DNA from: Neisseriaceae bacterium
GTDB taxonomy: Bacteria; Pseudomonadota; Gammaproteobacteria; Burkholderiales; UBA11063
Length of the DNA stretch: 13,978 nt
Direction: 5' to 3'
Assembly (NCBI GenBank): GCA_947454215.1
Contig: CANGJN010000003.1
Coordinates: forward strand, 1-13,978
In this document: piece after piece, positions 4,781 to 13,775 of the stretch
Layout of the letters: every line of letters begins with the position of its first letter
How positions within the stretch are numbered: the stretch's first letter is position 1
Notes under the pieces: model-generated
Database searches by the model: none
Told to the model about the DNA's origin: nothing
What the model saw: the letters and a program-made list of their open reading frames with translations, nothing else
Position numbers and translations under genes: made by a program

Positions 4781-7700
4781 ATGGCTTTATATTTTAAAAC
4801 TAAAATTACTACCAATCTAAAATCGCAGGAATTGATTGCAGATTTATTATTTGACATATATAATTCTAAACATAAAAACCTTTTTAACCGTGTAAAGATA
4901 ATTGTTGCCAATAATACTATGGCAGAATGGATTAAATATAGGATCACAGATTTATATAATATTTGTGCTAACTTAGATTTTTTAATTTATCCAGAAGTAT
5001 TTATTACTAGTGTCTATGTTGAAAACAACCCTTTCCATAAACTTTTTGATTTCGAAAAAGCAACATTTATTATATTTAATTTTTTTAATAACCGAATAAT
5101 TTACGATGATCAACTTTATCACAATTTAAAAACATTTATTTTTGATAAAAATAATAATCTGCAAATTTATAGAGTATATCAACTTTCACTGCAATTAAAA
5201 AAAATTTTTTTTGAATATTTATTTTTAAGAACTGAAGAACTTTTAAATGGAACATTGTGGTCAATTAGTGAGGCTAAATGGCAAGAGCAAGTATGGAATT
5301 ATTTGATGAGTGAAATAAGTTCTCGAGGAGAAAAAACTTACTTAGATATATTTAAATACTATATGAACTCTAATAATACTTTTAATGCTCCCAAAGAATT
5401 ATTTATATTCAATTTACCAAGTGTATATCCTTCGCAACTTAAAATTTTGCTAAAAATGAGTAAATACATCGACATTCATTGGTACTATTCTCCAATTAGT
5501 GAGGGTTACTATGGTGACTTGTTATCGCCGTTAGCTAGGATTAAATTAGAAAAAAAAATAATGGGATATCCCAATTTAAATATTGATGATTTATATTTGA
5601 TAGATGGAAATCCTCTAGTTGCAGATCTAGGTGGCCAGTCAAGAGAGTTCATAGAGTTATTATTAAATAATGGAATAGAAATCGACTTCTTAAATAATAA
5701 TAACCCCAATAATTTCCCTAAAACAATGTTAGATATTATAAAAGATGATATTCTTAAAATAAAATACCGCTTAGATTCGCAATTAAGACTCAATAAAAAC
5801 TCAGATTTTTATGCCGACCCAATCAATATATCGGATAAGTCTACTATTAAAATAAATATTTGTTACAATAAAATGAGAGAAGTACAAGTAATGTTTAATA
5901 CTATAGCAGACATTTTAAATCAAGACAATTCTTTAAAATTAAATGATATTCTTATTACCGCACCAAACATAGATGACTATGCCACCTACATTGAGGCAGT
6001 TTTTAATAATGAGTATGTTGAAAGTGTTTTTTTAGAACAGAAGAAAATTCCTTATACTATAAACGGAGTAAAAAAATATACTAAGATTAGTATTTTTGAA
6101 AGCATTGAATTATTATTTAGTGTTCCTTATCATACACCTATTACTTTTTTAATTACTGTTATTTCTGATACAAATATCATGAAAAACTTACAGTTAAGTA
6201 ATCAAGATATTGAACTAATAACTATGTGGGCCTCAGAGAACAATGTTCATTTTGGTTATGCTAAAGATGATTATCATAAACTAGGATATCAAGATAATGA
6301 TATTTATAGTTTAAAAAGATTTATAATTAATTTAACGTATGGATTATTTATCCCTAATGAAATTAGTAAGAAAGCAAATTATTTACCTATAATTACTTTA
6401 GATGACACCTATGTTCCATATGATAATTTAGAGTTCTCTGATACAGAGTTATTAAATAAATTAGTAAAAATTATCGATATTATTATATCTATTCGTGACT
6501 TTTTATATATTGACGAAGTAACTGTTACAACTAGAGATTTAAATGATTTTAAAACTTTATTAATCGACATAAAAGAGAGTATTTTTTCTATTGAGCAAGA
6601 TCAATTTTATTTAGATGAACTAATTGCATCAATTAATGAGTCTAATTTGCCTATTAATAGATTAATAATTTTAAACATGATAAATGAGTTTGGTAAAACA
6701 AGTAAAACAAATTCTTTATTTTCAGGAAACCTACAGTTTTCATCAATGCAAGATGTTAGAGGGGTACCATTTAAAGTGGTTTATATTATGGGGATGGAAA
6801 ATGGAAAATTTCCTCGCATACATACTCCCAACAAATTAAGTATTTTATCCAATTATTGGTATATAGCAGATCGTAATTACAATTTAGAGGATAAACAAAA
6901 TTTTCTTGAATTAGTTATGATGGCTAAGAGTAAACTAATTATTAGTTACGTTGGAATAAATGAAAAAAATAACAATAATTTAGATCCAAATCCAATGCTT
7001 AATTTATTTTTTGAAGTTATTGCAAATAGTTTTGGTAAAGACTCCTTAGATTCAATTATGACTAAGCATTCTTTACATCCTTTTTATAATAATTTAAGCA
7101 GAAATTATTCTGGATATTGGAAACAATTATCCGGTAAAGTTACCAATTCAACGTTTAGAAATAAATGGAGTTTTAATCATCCTATAAACTCATCAAATGA
7201 TGAATTAAATATTTGTGCAGATGTTCTTATAAAAACATTATTATATACCAACTGTAATTTATATCATAAATTACAGATATCTAGTTATAAAAATTTAGAA
7301 GTTTGTGATGATGAGAGTTTTGAGTTTTCAAATAGAAATATTTCTAAATTAATGTTTAAAGAATTGCAAAAATTAAATTTAAATTCACAACTTATCTTGA
7401 AACTAAAGACACAAATAATAGAATATATGTCATCTAAAGGAATAGTTTCCTCAGGTAAATTTGGTAAAGATCAATCTTTATCATATTTAAAAGTATTTGA
7501 TATATTTTTGCAATATAATAACCATAAAGATATAGTAATAGAATATATTAATCAAGAATTAAACATCCAAATAACGCAAAAATATTCTCTTGCTTCTAAT
7601 GGTATTTTATACATTTTTAATGATTTAAACAATATTCGAGATGAGTTTCATAAAGAATCTTATGATGCGGCAATGTATGCAAAAATATTGGTATATTGGT

Positions 7701-8116
7701 CTTTAATTAATCACCCTAAAACTATAATTTATGATGAACAAAGAAATATAATCGCTAAACCTAAAATCATAGTAAATTTAATTAATTTAAAAGGTGAAAT
7801 TCAAGAATTAGAGTTTGGAATGAATTGTACTTCAGAGGTATTATTAAATAAAATTATTAACTACTATATAAATAGTTTAAATCATCCAACACTGTTTCAT
7901 AAGAAAGCCATTCAATCTTATGACAAATCAAAAAAACCTCAGCAGATATATCAGGAATTACTAAAAACTTATAATAATTATGATTTAGAAAAATTAAAGT
8001 CAGATCCAATCTGGAGTAGTCTCATAAATAATTATGAGTCATTATTAGATAATCCAAATTTTACAAATCCTTTGCTAAATCTTGTTGAAATTTTTAATTC
8101 CATTATAATATTTTAA
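4781..8116 (+). CDS. recC: RecBCD subunit RecC (Chi-recognition and strand-splitting subunit)
   Basis: RecC scaffolds the RecBCD complex, splits the duplex and reads the 3' strand for the Chi sequence. Length is 1111 aa against 1122 in E. coli. The N-terminus carries the RecC block IIVANNTMAEW (40-50) followed by ICANLDF (61-67), matching E. coli ILVQSTGMAQW and IAANIDF. The segment VPFKVVYIMGMENGKFPR (662-679) matches the family's IPFKVV..LGM..G.YPR block. As expected for RecC, no Walker A is present: it is an inactivated helicase with an inactivated nuclease-like C-terminal domain. From memory of the E. coli protein, Chi-contact residues Gln38, Thr40, Gln44 and Trp70 correspond here to Ala43, Asn45, Glu49 and probably Thr76, so Chi recognition is likely to differ. 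The start lies 3 nt after the recD stop with AGAGAA upstream, and translational coupling is likely. Confidence 0.94.
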   Translation: MALYFKTKITTNLKSQELIADLLFDIYNSKHKNLFNRVKIIVANNTMAEWIKYRITDLYNICANLDFLIYPEVFITSVYVENNPFHKLFDFEKATFIIFNFFNNRIIYDDQLYHNLKTFIFDKNNNLQIYRVYQLSLQLKKIFFEYLFLRTEELLNGTLWSISEAKWQEQVWNYLMSEISSRGEKTYLDIFKYYMNSNNTFNAPKELFIFNLPSVYPSQLKILLKMSKYIDIHWYYSPISEGYYGDLLSPLARIKLEKKIMGYPNLNIDDLYLIDGNPLVADLGGQSREFIELLLNNGIEIDFLNNNNPNNFPKTMLDIIKDDILKIKYRLDSQLRLNKNSDFYADPINISDKSTIKINICYNKMREVQVMFNTIADILNQDNSLKLNDILITAPNIDDYATYIEAVFNNEYVESVFLEQKKIPYTINGVKKYTKISIFESIELLFSVPYHTPITFLITVISDTNIMKNLQLSNQDIELITMWASENNVHFGYAKDDYHKLGYQDNDIYSLKRFIINLTYGLFIPNEISKKANYLPIITLDDTYVPYDNLEFSDTELLNKLVKIIDIIISIRDFLYIDEVTVTTRDLNDFKTLLIDIKESIFSIEQDQFYLDELIASINESNLPINRLIILNMINEFGKTSKTNSLFSGNLQFSSMQDVRGVPFKVVYIMGMENGKFPRIHTPNKLSILSNYWYIADRNYNLEDKQNFLELVMMAKSKLIISYVGINEKNNNNLDPNPMLNLFFEVIANSFGKDSLDSIMTKHSLHPFYNNLSRNYSGYWKQLSGKVTNSTFRNKWSFNHPINSSNDELNICADVLIKTLLYTNCNLYHKLQISSYKNLEVCDDESFEFSNRNISKLMFKELQKLNLNSQLILKLKTQIIEYMSSKGIVSSGKFGKDQSLSYLKVFDIFLQYNNHKDIVIEYINQELNIQITQKYSLASNGILYIFNDLNNIRDEFHKESYDAAMYAKILVYWSLINHPKTIIYDEQRNIIAKPKIIVNLINLKGEIQELEFGMNCTSEVLLNKIINYYINSLNHPTLFHKKAIQSYDKSKKPQQIYQELLKTYNNYDLEKLKSDPIWSSLINNYESLLDNPNFTNPLLNLVEIFNSIIIF

Positions 8117-8128
8117 TAAAGTAATATT

Positions 8129-11100
8129 ATGTCAAATTATCATCCTTTAAATGAAATTACTTTTAATTCATTAACGGAAACATGTGCAATAGAAGCAAGT
8201 GCCGGAACAGGTAAGACTTGGACTATTGAAAGATTGTATATTAAATCATTATTAGACAGGGCAAATCTTAATTTAGAAAACATCCTTGTTGTAACCTTCA
8301 CTAATAATGCTGCCAATGAACTAAAAATAAGAATTATTCGACAAATTAATGAAACCATTAATCACCTTATTAAATTTAAGAATAATAATCAAAATAATCC
8401 TGATGATCCTTTTATTAAAGATCTGCTACACACTAGAGATTCAAATACAATAATTAATGATATTACTGTATTAACTCGAGCAAAGCAATCCTATGACCGT
8501 ATATCTATCTTTACTATACATGGATTTTGTTCTAATATTATTAAAGACTTTCAGACAGAATTTAACATTAATACGCCCATACAAATAACCTCAAGTCATG
8601 ATGAAATACTCTTAAGACTAATTAAATCATTCTATAAAGAGCGAATACTTGATAATAAAATATTTTCAAACGACTTATGGAAGGTAACAAAAAATATTGA
8701 TAATTTATTTGAAACTGATTTTGAAACCACTATAATTGAAAAATTATTAGCCAAACTTCCCAAAAACCTATTTATAATTGAAAATGGTATTTCTAAATTA
8801 GCTTATTCCAATATTTCAAAATATAATTTAGAAGTTTTACGGGAAGATCTCCAACTGACTCCTGAAAATATTAATAGTGTTAATTTACCTGATGAATTAT
8901 CCAATAAGAAAAGGTTAACTAAAGATGAAATAAATACAATTAATAAGAAAAGAAAGATCTACTTTTTAAAAGTTTTATTAAGTGAGTTAATTGTATATAT
9001 CTCTAATAAATTTGATGATTATAGAAAACTTGGAAATAGAATTAATTATGATGAATTAATTCAAATAGTCTCCAGTGAGATAAAGGTAAATAAAGAACTT
9101 TCTCAAAAAATATTTAAGTTATATCCAATTGCTTTTATCGATGAGTTTCAAGATACTGACTCTAATCAATGGGAAATTTTTAAATCTTTATATTCAATAT
9201 CGGAAAATTCAACCAGAGGTCATTTGATAGTGGTAGGCGACCCTAAACAGGCAATATATAGATTTAGAGGGGCGGATATCAATACCTATTTTATGGCAAT
9301 TAAACAAATTAATAAAATTAAATTTCTATCTGAAAATAGAAGATCTCATCCTCATATTTTAAATTTTATCAATCATATTTTTAATCCCAATTACCAAACT
9401 CATAATAGTGCTTTTTTAGGGGATGGAATTCAATATCAAAAAATTACTGCTAAAGTTGATTTAGCAAAGTTAACTGAAATTCCTGATAGTAAAGATCTTA
9501 ATCTATTAGCACAAAAACTATCAATTAATCATAATTTTTATAATGACCATGTTCATATCGTTTCAATAAATAATCAACCAGATTGTACTAAAGAAGAAGC
9601 AATAGTACGTGCTTTAACTTTTGAGATATTAGCACTATTAACCTCCAATGAAAAATTAAATGCTAAAATTGCAATTTTAGTTTGTAAAAACTATCAAGCC
9701 ACAATAATTGTTGAATATTTAAAAAAATATGGAATCAAGTCAGTTGAACTTAAATTAAGCAATATTTATACTACTAATACAGCACAACAATTATGGAATA
9801 TTTTAGACTCTATCAAAGACTTAAGTAAGAAAAAGAAGTTTAATCTCGCTATATCTGGAGATATATTTAATTTTGATTTGTCTAAGTTACTGTTTCAAGA
9901 ACAACATCAAATTGAACTTGAATCGTTATACCAAAATTTCTATTCCTATAAACATATTTTTGAACAAAAAGGAATTTTATCTTTAATTTATAAAATTATT
10001 GAACATATATCATCTAAAATAACTCATGGAATAACCAATCGTGAATTATCAAATTTAACCCAACTAGGAGAGTTGTTAAACAAAAAAAGTAAGCAACTCC
10101 ATAATCCTTATGATATTTTACCTTGGTTTAAAAATAAAATTGAAGAATGCAAAAATAAAACAAATTTAGATATAAGTGATAATGATGATGAAGAAATTAT
10201 TCGTTTAGATAATGATGATGAACAAATTGTGGTTATGACTCAGCATACTGCTAAGGGTTTAGAATATGAAATTTTATTTTGCCCTTTTTTTAATAACGAC
10301 AGTGTATTAAATAATAATCAAAATAAATTACCACTTTTTATTTCATATCAAAATAATAAACAGCAAGTTTATGAGTTAATAGATGATGAAGAGTTAGCCA
10401 ATAAAATTATCAAAAGTAATAATAGTGAAATTCATAGATTAAATTATGTCACTTTAACAAGAGCGAAAAGTAGAATATACATTTATTTGAGCGAAACAAC
10501 CAAGACTAAAACTAATCCAATAAAATATTTTCATAAAGCAAATACCAATAAAATAGATGAACTATTTGGCTATATAAAATCTGACCCTAATGATATGAGC
10601 CATATGATATTTAATTATCCATTATTTTTTACTAACCCAGAACAGGCAATAAAGGAAGAGTTCAAAGTGTTACTTCCTAGTGTTGTTTCCTATAAAAGAA
10701 ATGTAACAATAAATGATTTAGATAAACTAAATTTAAATTTAACTAATACGATAGAAAATAAAACATCTATCGAAATGAATTACTTGTCAGATCTATCACT
10801 ATTAAACACTACCTTCACTAGACAAAGTTATTCATCCATAACAAGCAACTTAAATAATGATATAGATAATGAAAAAGACTATTTTAAAAGTAACGATGAA
10901 AATAATTATAATAATGAATATACTTATGAAATTTTAAATTCACCAGAACTAAAAGGAGCAAAATTTGGTCTACTTTTCCACGAGTTATGTGAAAATTATC
11001 CTTTAAATGTTAATAATACAAATTTAATTTTAAATAAACATAGTATAAATATAGATTTCGTTAATGACTATATAAATATTATAAATGAGGCATTAAATTA

Positions 11101-11647
11101 CAAATTAGGACCACTAAATTTATCCATAAGTAGTATTGATAATAAAATCCATGAACTAGAGTTTAATTTAAAAATTAAAAATAATATTAATATTTCGGAA
11201 TTAGTAGCTAATTTATTGATAAAATATTATGGAGAAACCCATCCATTTTCAATATCATGCAAGGAATTAAAAACTATTGATAGTGGCTATTTAAAAGGAT
11301 ATATAGATCTATTTTTTTTTGCAAATGATAAATTCTGGATTTTAGATTATAAAACTAATGAATTAAATAACTACTCAAATTGTAATTCACCTATATCTAC
11401 AACCAATGAAATACTATTATCCATGGCAGAAAATCATTATTATTTACAATATTTAATATATTTAGTTGCCGTTAAAAGGTATTTAGAACAATTTATTAAT
11501 ATCGAGGATAGTTCCTCTATATTAGGAGGTGCCATTTATTTTTATGTAAAGGGGGTATATGTTACAAATAAACAATTATCAGGAGGTATATACTTTGATG
11601 ATTGTTGCCAAAGTTTAATTTCAGACTTAGATCAGTTATTTCTTTAA
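8129..11647 (+). CDS. recB: RecBCD subunit RecB (SF1A 3'-5' helicase and nuclease)
   Basis: RecB is the 3'-5' helicase and the only nuclease of RecBCD, and it loads RecA after Chi. Length is 1172 aa against 1180 in E. coli. The helicase motifs are complete: Walker A EASAGTGKT (22-30, Lys29 as in E. coli), motif Ia VVTFTNNAANELK, the DE-box FIDEFQDTD (336-344), motif III GDPKQAIYRFRGAD (370-383), motif V QHTAKGLEYE (705-714) and motif VI YVTLTRAK (773-780). The C-terminal nuclease domain has His951 (in LFHELCE), Asp1060 (in GYIDL), Asp1073 and Lys1075 (in LDYKT), plus the downstream Q-x2-Y helix. These match E. coli His956, Asp1067, Asp1080 and Lys1082, so an active nuclease is predicted. The gene starts 12 nt after the recC stop with only a weak AAAG at 8118-8121, and is the last gene of the operon. 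Confidence 0.96.
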   Translation: MSNYHPLNEITFNSLTETCAIEASAGTGKTWTIERLYIKSLLDRANLNLENILVVTFTNNAANELKIRIIRQINETINHLIKFKNNNQNNPDDPFIKDLLHTRDSNTIINDITVLTRAKQSYDRISIFTIHGFCSNIIKDFQTEFNINTPIQITSSHDEILLRLIKSFYKERILDNKIFSNDLWKVTKNIDNLFETDFETTIIEKLLAKLPKNLFIIENGISKLAYSNISKYNLEVLREDLQLTPENINSVNLPDELSNKKRLTKDEINTINKKRKIYFLKVLLSELIVYISNKFDDYRKLGNRINYDELIQIVSSEIKVNKELSQKIFKLYPIAFIDEFQDTDSNQWEIFKSLYSISENSTRGHLIVVGDPKQAIYRFRGADINTYFMAIKQINKIKFLSENRRSHPHILNFINHIFNPNYQTHNSAFLGDGIQYQKITAKVDLAKLTEIPDSKDLNLLAQKLSINHNFYNDHVHIVSINNQPDCTKEEAIVRALTFEILALLTSNEKLNAKIAILVCKNYQATIIVEYLKKYGIKSVELKLSNIYTTNTAQQLWNILDSIKDLSKKKKFNLAISGDIFNFDLSKLLFQEQHQIELESLYQNFYSYKHIFEQKGILSLIYKIIEHISSKITHGITNRELSNLTQLGELLNKKSKQLHNPYDILPWFKNKIEECKNKTNLDISDNDDEEIIRLDNDDEQIVVMTQHTAKGLEYEILFCPFFNNDSVLNNNQNKLPLFISYQNNKQQVYELIDDEELANKIIKSNNSEIHRLNYVTLTRAKSRIYIYLSETTKTKTNPIKYFHKANTNKIDELFGYIKSDPNDMSHMIFNYPLFFTNPEQAIKEEFKVLLPSVVSYKRNVTINDLDKLNLNLTNTIENKTSIEMNYLSDLSLLNTTFTRQSYSSITSNLNNDIDNEKDYFKSNDENNYNNEYTYEILNSPELKGAKFGLLFHELCENYPLNVNNTNLILNKHSINIDFVNDYINIINEALNYKLGPLNLSISSIDNKIHELEFNLKIKNNINISELVANLLIKYYGETHPFSISCKELKTIDSGYLKGYIDLFFFANDKFWILDYKTNELNNYSNCNSPISTTNEILLSMAENHYYLQYLIYLVAVKRYLEQFINIEDSSSILGGAIYFYVKGVYVTNKQLSGGIYFDDCCQSLISDLDQLFL

Positions 11648-11925: not shown

Positions 11926-11931
11926 AGGAGG
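11926..11931 (+). promoter_or_regulatory. Consensus ribosome binding site (AGGAGG)
   Basis: A perfect Shine-Dalgarno hexamer lies 5 nt before the ATG at 11937. The other genes of this window have weaker purine runs (AAGG, GAGAG, GGAAAGG, AAAG), so this gene is probably translated strongly. Confidence 0.85.
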
Positions 11932-11936
11932 AAAAA

Positions 11937-13754
11937 ATGAAAAAAATTATTTTGCTATTATTGTATACCAATATTTATTCATTAACTGGTTATAATGAAA
12001 ATGGCATTAACTATCGTTATAATAAAACTGGTTTATCCCAGTTACTTAACCAAACTTTTTTATTAACATTATCAGAAAGTGGTAAAAATAGTAAACGTAT
12101 GCCTATGTTTTGTATGGGTATTTTAGAGGAATCTAGCATTATTTACCCCAAACAATGTGAAACTACAATGAAAGGTAAAGAGATAAGGACTTTTGATAAA
12201 GCTACCGCACAAAACTATTCAAACTTGACTAGTTCATTGTCCAGTAACACAAAATTTAGCGTTAATGATCAAGATCAACATTTAATAGATATTGGAAAGT
12301 CACTGTTTGTAGACAAACCAATAAAGTTAAATTCATCAATTCCAAAGGATAAAGCTAATTTTGTTAAAGAGCAATCCTTAGAAAAGATATTTAGCAGTTC
12401 TTGTGCAAACCCAGTTCCAAATGCTGAGAGTTCAACTAGTGAAAATGACTGTCAGTCTCTATTAGAACCATCAGTAGATCAAGATGGCAAACCAAAATTT
12501 GTATTTTTTCTGTTATTATACAATCAAAAAATTTTTCTTTATGACATAAGTAGAGTTGTTTATAATAAAGAAACAAATTTATTTTCAGTTTCTGCAGACA
12601 ATTTTCCACAGGCTGGAATATCTTATTTAGGAGCTCCACTTGTTGCCTGTACTAGCAACTTAAAATTTTGTGCATTTATGGGCTTATACACTTCTTTTGG
12701 AAATAATGGTGTTTATTTTACTCCAATTTCTATCGGTTCAAAAGTTTCTGTAGATAGTCATGTTAAGCAAGAAGTTAAACTTGATTATAAAAAAACTGCT
12801 TTATACACTTATTTAAATCAAACTTTTTTATTAACATTAAGCCAAAATACGAAAATTAAAAGAGGTAATAATTTAACTAACCGCTGTATGGGATTTCTAT
12901 ATGAAAAAAGTATTGTTTTTCCAAAAAGTTGCTTAATTTATAGCAAAGAAGAGCAAGACATTGAATTTAACAGAGCTACTGCACAGAATTTTTCAAATTT
13001 AACTTCCGTTCTATCTAAGAAAACAACTATTAATTTCGAAGGCAAAGATAAGGACTCAACAGTAACAATAGGGGATGAAGTTTTTATAAAAAAACCAATT
13101 CCACTAAATTCATCGATTCCAAAAAGTGACACTGATTTTTTTAATCAAAACAATTTAGATACTTATTTTACGAGTACTTGTAATTTTTCACCAAACTCCG
13201 ATTGTAATAAATATCTTACTCCAGTAACATCAGTTAATGGAGGAGGATCACACCCATTAATATTTTTTCTACTCTTATATAATAAAAAGCCTTATTTTGA
13301 AAAAATAGATAAACTTAACTATAATATTGAGAAGAAAGTTTATATAATTAATAAAAAATATATTTTACCTTCAGAATATAGTTATTTAGGCGCGGTACTT
13401 ATTGCATGTATAAACTACACATATAAAGCTTGTAAGTTTATGGGAACATACATTGGAAATAACAAAATAGATGGTACCCCTATTTTTAATGCTATTAATT
13501 TAGCATCTCAATCATCTACTTCCTTAGAGGATAGCAATGAATTATATTTTTCAACTGAAAGCATTCCCTTCTCTAAGGAGAGTAGAGGCTCATCTGGTTC
13601 TAGTCAAGGATCTGCTTCCTTAGAGGAGAGCGGTGGTTCATCTGGTTCTAGTCAAGAACCTACTTCCTTAGAGGATAGTGTTGGTTCAACTGATTCTATT
13701 CAAGAATCTACTTCCTTAGAGAATAGTGTTGGTTCATCTGGTTCTAATCAATAA
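11937..13754 (+). CDS. Exported protein with two degenerate trypsin-like domains and a Ser/Glu-rich repeat tail
   Basis: I know no named family for this 605-aa protein. Residues 1 to about 18 form a signal peptide (MKK, then an Ile/Leu core). Two homologous domains follow, about 31-270 and 287-522. Shared landmarks are NQTFLLTLS (38-46, 294-302), C-M-G-x-L...P-K-x-C (59-74, 317-332), ATAQN(Y/F)SNLTS (89-99, 347-357), KPI-x-LNSSIPK (127-137, 386-396), FFLLLYN (190-196, 443-449), and YLGA-x-L-x-AC...C-x-FMG (230-249, 483-503). Each domain has exactly six cysteines and there are no others, which suggests disulfides outside the cytoplasm. The order fits a trypsin fold: the C42-C58 loop, the DIALL...P..LN segment, the GGPLVC strand and a final GVY. 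His57 is replaced by Gln73 or Ser331, Ser195 by Leu231 or Leu484, and the Asp is not conserved, so it should be inactive as a protease. Residues 526-605 are 16-residue Ser/Glu/Gly repeats. The fold assignment is inference from motif order, moderately held. Confidence 0.85.
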   Translation: MKKIILLLLYTNIYSLTGYNENGINYRYNKTGLSQLLNQTFLLTLSESGKNSKRMPMFCMGILEESSIIYPKQCETTMKGKEIRTFDKATAQNYSNLTSSLSSNTKFSVNDQDQHLIDIGKSLFVDKPIKLNSSIPKDKANFVKEQSLEKIFSSSCANPVPNAESSTSENDCQSLLEPSVDQDGKPKFVFFLLLYNQKIFLYDISRVVYNKETNLFSVSADNFPQAGISYLGAPLVACTSNLKFCAFMGLYTSFGNNGVYFTPISIGSKVSVDSHVKQEVKLDYKKTALYTYLNQTFLLTLSQNTKIKRGNNLTNRCMGFLYEKSIVFPKSCLIYSKEEQDIEFNRATAQNFSNLTSVLSKKTTINFEGKDKDSTVTIGDEVFIKKPIPLNSSIPKSDTDFFNQNNLDTYFTSTCNFSPNSDCNKYLTPVTSVNGGGSHPLIFFLLLYNKKPYFEKIDKLNYNIEKKVYIINKKYILPSEYSYLGAVLIACINYTYKACKFMGTYIGNNKIDGTPIFNAINLASQSSTSLEDSNELYFSTESIPFSKESRGSSGSSQGSASLEESGGSSGSSQEPTSLEDSVGSTDSIQESTSLENSVGSSGSNQ

Positions 13755-13775
13755 TCTACTTCTTAGAAGATAGTA
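13512..13775 (+). repeat. 48-bp tandem repeat array, running past the stop codon
   Basis: Five 48-bp units begin at 13512, 13560, 13608, 13656 and 13704 and encode the C-terminal tail. The last three units are nearly identical (core CTACTTCCTTAGAG...AGT), while the first two have diverged. A partial sixth unit begins exactly in phase at 13752, but its first codon is TAA where the two preceding units have GAA. That TAA is the stop of the gene. The remnant (to about 13775) has also lost one C. Because 48 is divisible by three, copy-number change keeps the frame. Confidence 0.85.

Follow-up and report, generated by a model that had tools for sequence, protein, structure and literature searches.

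The stretch of DNA analysed here, referred to below as the window, comprises 13,978 nucleotides and makes up the whole of contig C3 (CANGJN010000003.1) in the draft genome of a Neisseriaceae bacterium (945,430 bases in 180 contigs, 52% complete). Its 3′ part carries a gene for a 605-residue protein that contains two fused, related domains, which are compared below with serine proteases of the S1 family (PA clan, chymotrypsin fold). An initial annotation, made from the sequence alone, had described this product as resembling two catalytically dead trypsin folds preceded by an export signal and a strong ribosome binding site. The limits it gave to the open reading frame (ORF) are exact, and an AGGAGG motif indeed lies shortly upstream of the ATG. 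The N terminus is signal-like, with two lysines followed by a hydrophobic run, and the protein is probably exported or secreted; the extent of the signal peptide was judged by eye and not by a signal-peptide program.

The internal duplication is far beyond chance. Compared by BLASTP, domains 1 and 2 show 42% identity and 57% positives (158 bits, E 4e-52), and six pairs of cysteines align between them, as the initial annotation had proposed. The motifs it quoted all recur in both halves, which have in common LNQTFLLTLS, CMG-x-L...C, KPI-x-LNSSIPK and SYLGA-x-L-x-A-C...FMG-x-Y. The two copies differ at 43% of first, 34% of second and 48% of third codon positions, all twelve cysteines are retained across them, and no histidine is invariant between the halves.

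The landmarks follow the same order as in S1 proteases. The halves have C-x14-C where chymotrypsin has C42-x15-C58, and SYLGAPLVAC stands at the place of GDSGGPVFIC. The catalytic triad (His57-Asp102-Ser195) does not appear to be kept: alignment with intact proteases, which lacks profile support, puts Gln73 and Ser331, each preceding the second cysteine of its half, at the place of His57, and Leu231 and Leu484 at that of Ser195, the same residues that had been singled out beforehand. On the alignments the oxyanion glycine is also replaced by serine, GDSGGP becoming SYLGAP in domain 1 and SYLGAV in domain 2. The region of Asp102 is shortened; the KPI motif, which had been equated with the segment following Asp102, is present, but its match to that segment is ambiguous because a 14-residue gap falls there relative to the intact proteases. 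Since both copies carry SYLGA for GDSGG and neither keeps a histidine before its second cysteine, the simplest history would be one in which catalysis was lost first and the domain was doubled afterwards.

Table 1. Features of the tandem-domain gene and its product, in window coordinates
Feature	Position	Strand	Basis
Tandem-domain protein ORF, 605 aa, stop codon included	11937..13754	+	ORF list (ATG at 11937)
AGGAGG, likely ribosome binding site, 5 bases upstream of ATG	11926..11931	+	direct sequence reading
Probable signal peptide, residues 1-16	11937..11984	+	two Lys, then hydrophobic run; extent by eye
Domain 1, residues 28-270; Cys 59, 74, 156, 172, 238, 245	12018..12746	+	BLASTP and alignments
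Domain 2, residues 284-524; Cys 317, 332, 415, 423, 491, 499	12786..13508	+	BLASTP and alignments
Gln73-Cys74, Gln at catalytic His57 place	12153..12158	+	alignment with intact proteases
Ser331-Cys332, Ser at catalytic His57 place	12927..12932	+	alignment with intact proteases
SYLGA, residues 229-233, aligned with GDSGG; Leu231 at Ser195 place	12621..12635	+	alignment
SYLGA, residues 482-486, aligned with GDSGG; Leu484 at Ser195 place	13380..13394	+	alignment
48-bp tandem repeat, 4.2 copies, coding for Ser/Gly/Glu-rich tail	13576..13774	+	repeat search

A reference for this comparison is provided by the genome itself. A trypsin search over the genus gave above-cut-off matches in 16 of 23 genomes, while in the protein's own genome a sub-cut-off match (E 0.31) led, on contig G000:C2, to a 509-residue protein (L016:3559-5088) with the motifs AYHC, PEDIALL and SGDSGGP. 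Together with four relatives (P0003-P0006, P0003 being a 312-residue partial sequence) it forms an aligned set of five intact sequences, all of which share the histidine, the aspartate, GDSGGP and six protease-domain cysteines. The start of a second copy lies 3′ of this gene at the end of the contig (G000:C2:14422; both within L016:3559-5538), and the tail end of a further copy is found where contig C5 stops (G000:C5:12008-12325); these genes probably form a tandem array at which the assembly broke.

The six cysteines of each half co-align, unforced, with the six of the intact proteases in three MAFFT modes. Six all-cysteine columns were reached in none of 150 full and none of 150 Cys-fixed permutations of the halves' columns (maximum five), and the reversed halves yielded two. 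Under three gap settings, the profile Smith-Waterman score exceeded those of 296, 300 and 276 of 300 full permutations and of 294, 298 and 273 of 300 Cys-fixed ones; real and reversed halves scored 30.8 vs 24.5, 44.9 vs 27.0 and 25.5 vs 23.7, and a control region of the same intact proteases gave chance-level scores. The segment before the first cysteine is also similar, as is C-x-[FLM]-[MI] at the sixth. In contrast to the window protein, the intact family keeps its catalytic residues and has, in full-length members, a single protease domain followed by a C-terminal cysteine region, and its identity to domain 1 is only 17-21%. Sequence thus supports a relationship of the halves to the intact S1-like protease but does not prove it.

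In the low-confidence structure model built without protease sequences in its alignment, PA-clan proteases rank first among the fold matches. Rows set aside as background were 27 of the best 50 in the Foldseek search (20 of them microtubule proteins), and MreC rows in two other fold searches (3 of the best 50 and 1 of the best 50).

Several results weigh against reading the protein as an exported, disulfide-rich S1-like pseudoprotease. Pfam and NCBIfam hold no family above cut-off for the protein; the only Pfam matches are weak and unrelated to proteases (best DUF6273, E 0.025), and hmmscan with the whole protein and each half at a maximum E of 10 returned no trypsin family (PF00089), HMMER's filters discarding most matches above E of about 0.1 despite this setting. 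A profile-profile comparison by hhalign between the halves and the intact S1-like proteases (full and trimmed domains) gave no signal, with a probability of 0.1 and P of 0.37-0.53. As many as 13 invariant columns also arose in 14 full and 23 Cys-fixed permutations out of 150 each, the profile score was equalled by 6, 2 and 27 of 300 Cys-fixed permutations, and the reversed halves nearly equalled the real ones under the strictest of the gap settings. In a ranking of 68 single proteins, the scores of the 38 trypsin-like ones were not clearly higher than those of the remaining 30 (mean z 0.45 vs 0.09, Mann-Whitney p 0.061). The structure models are of low confidence, the fold-match Z is under 8, a level at which the tool warns of possibly just a common arrangement, and Foldseek gave no match at E 0.001 or below, its leading rows having TM-scores of 0.24-0.34. 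Its best E was 5.2e-3 with proteases in the alignment and 1.1e-3 without them, i.e., no improvement, the second model being moreover biased by the proteases it included. The protein's own genome gave no match to DsbA, but as it is half complete this says little. The dead-trypsin interpretation is partly supported: it has the PA-clan ranking obtained from structure prediction and fold search, at low model confidence, and lacks a profile match to trypsin. On balance, a PA-clan, S1-like fold that has lost catalysis appears likely.

As far as searched, the protein is an orphan. Against 5.77 billion clustered proteins, the whole protein matched only itself (7,994 candidates scored), and the halves, used as queries of the same database so that single-domain relatives could be found, gave nothing at E up to 1 (2,060 candidates). 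One genome in 100 matched, its own. Genome contigs and viral contigs were each scanned with two short peptide patterns of the halves, an approach that reaches only pattern-sharing sequences; tblastn showed no relative among the 83 and 35 stretches retrieved. Searches of relatives, and of the genus with the halves, found no credible match outside the window; the weak genus matches (E up to 10) lay in three other genomes, and those in G016 were rejected as both stretches carry six stop codons each, those in G002 and G013 as their frames resemble membrane transporters. A Protein Data Bank (PDB) sequence search gave one match for the whole protein (E 0.3) and a serpin for the halves (E 0.38), and no protease in either case. 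When the mixed alignment A3, which includes the intact proteases themselves, served as the query, Csm2 came top (E 0.0074), followed by seven weak PA-clan matches (glutamyl endopeptidase, E 0.097; trypsins, E 0.23 to 7.5). Another search with A3 recovers the window by construction and carries no weight as evidence.

These findings leave room for other explanations. The halves could represent a secreted domain of another, perhaps new, kind, beta-rich and with cysteines but unrelated to S1 proteases, acting as an adhesin or surface-binding module, its six-cysteine pattern and hydrophobic strands resembling S1 proteases by convergence. The absence of an above-cut-off profile match, of an hhalign signal and of any homologue in the searches described, the low model confidence and the non-significant ranking test all fit such a domain; however, the protease-free model still puts PA-clan proteases first, and the co-alignment of six cysteines was unreached in 300 permutations. 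Convergence seems rather unlikely. Somewhat less probable again is a special case of the pseudoprotease reading, in which the protein would serve the intact S1-like proteases of its own genome as a co-factor, folding aid or inhibitor. Intact genes, at least partly in tandem, are present in the same genome, and there is a precedent in MamO of Magnetospirillum, a metal-binding protein that, itself non-catalytic, promotes MamE-dependent proteolysis (PMC4794232). Yet the intact genes sit on other contigs, and elsewhere in the genus the halves lack a credible match and the intact family has only weak ones (G003, E 0.046; G005, E 0.0036). The SYLGA site looks constrained because both halves keep it along with other identical motifs, which might suggest that the protein is still an enzyme whose active site has been rearranged or is of another kind, but this is very improbable given that no histidine is invariant and that the His57 and Ser195 places are replaced on the alignment. 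Least probable of all is a decaying, functionless copy, for although the gene is an orphan whose tail repeat passes the stop codon, it keeps an intact 605-codon frame behind AGGAGG, and its twelve cysteines have survived the codon divergence of the two copies.

An exported tandem S1-like pseudoprotease with a binding role is therefore the best overall explanation and a reasonably probable one. The protein would be disulfide-rich, its two fused domains being copies of a single S1-like domain that lost catalysis and then duplicated. Each half would form a double beta-barrel serving as a binding surface, its first two cysteines bonded like C42-C58 of chymotrypsin, and the whole would be a bivalent binder that acts outside the cytoplasm. 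By analogy, binding is most plausibly the function of such a molecule. Its target could be a protease, an inhibitor or another surface protein met by the bacterium, although a role as decoy or scaffold is doubtful; alternatively, the partner could be the intact S1-like paralogue that the genome also encodes. A secretin gene, of either type II secretion or pili, occurs in 22 of 23 genomes of the genus, including this one, and may offer a way through the outer membrane.

Degraded S1 relatives occur elsewhere in the genus. Two other species are concerned: in one, the product of L035:712-1443 (minus strand) matches PF00089 at 31.1 bits and carries Glu, Ser and Thr at the places of His57, Asp102 and Ser195, respectively; in the other, G022, a relative of it (L059, plus strand, frame starting near 1398) has the same Glu and Ser and keeps Ser195. 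Judged by their residues, the two appear to form another pseudo-S1 lineage; if the window protein is S1-like, S1 catalysis has been lost more than once in the genus. The window protein's own genome also encodes a divergent trypsin-like protein (L017:1279-2433, minus strand; 18.8 bits, sub-cut-off) in which AAHC is kept and the GDSGG motif is unrecognisable, adjoined by two small ORFs with signal-like starts and cysteines.

Around the tandem-domain gene, the tail repeat extends 20 bases 3′ of the stop codon (13754-13774), so the length of the tail may vary between strains; elsewhere in the genus it gave nothing beyond matches of 26 and 24 bases. A promoter scan scored 15, not above shuffles (mean 15.2). 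The other main genes are an ORF cut by the contig start (20-883), in which a unit of about 80 residues seems by eye to be duplicated and which has no Pfam match, a lipocalin (PF08212), a gene matching the pyrimidine-dimer glycosylase family PF03013 (25.9 bits, cut-off 23), recD, recC and recB. RecC and RecB (4781-11647) are clearly recognisable despite scoring under the NCBIfam equivalog cut-offs, perhaps a sign of fast divergence.

Non-catalytic trypsin folds used for binding have precedents. The inactive serine protease paralogues of the scabies mite are single-domain proteins with clear S1 sequences. These animal proteins match the role proposed here as non-catalytic binding proteins: they bind complement factors, and the site through which they inhibit is distinct from the residual active site (PMC4031079). 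Human polyserases-1, -2 and -3 carry tandem serine protease domains with inactive members in one chain, only the first of the three being active in polyserase-2; unlike the window protein, they are animal proteins with active domains (PMC1435904). A bacterial likeness is MamO, a trypsin-fold pseudoprotease whose protease domain is kept for binding and whose related clades show a duplication in which one of the copies has a degenerate triad; it differs as an HtrA homologue with a TauE-like transporter domain, in which two histidines contribute to metal binding (PMC4794232). Of the 247 trypsin-like proteins that a survey counted in 91 prokaryote genomes, 2 were inactive homologues (PMC2605481), and bacterial S1 pseudoproteases look rare in print. 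Among the titles and beginnings of abstracts listed from the open-licence literature, MamO and other bacterial pseudoproteases occurred and no tandem inactive trypsin-like protein from bacteria, a weak negative.

Altogether, it is conceivable, if tentative, that the gene represents an orphan bacterial family descended from an S1-like protease, in which loss of the active site came first and doubling of the dead domain then gave a secreted, bivalent binder, in parallel with the inactive paralogues of animals and in a lineage with other degraded S1 relatives. If so, tandem exported S1 pseudoproteases may lie beyond the reach of profile searches and would be under-counted, and the intact S1-like protease of the same genome offers a reference for comparing structure and binding.
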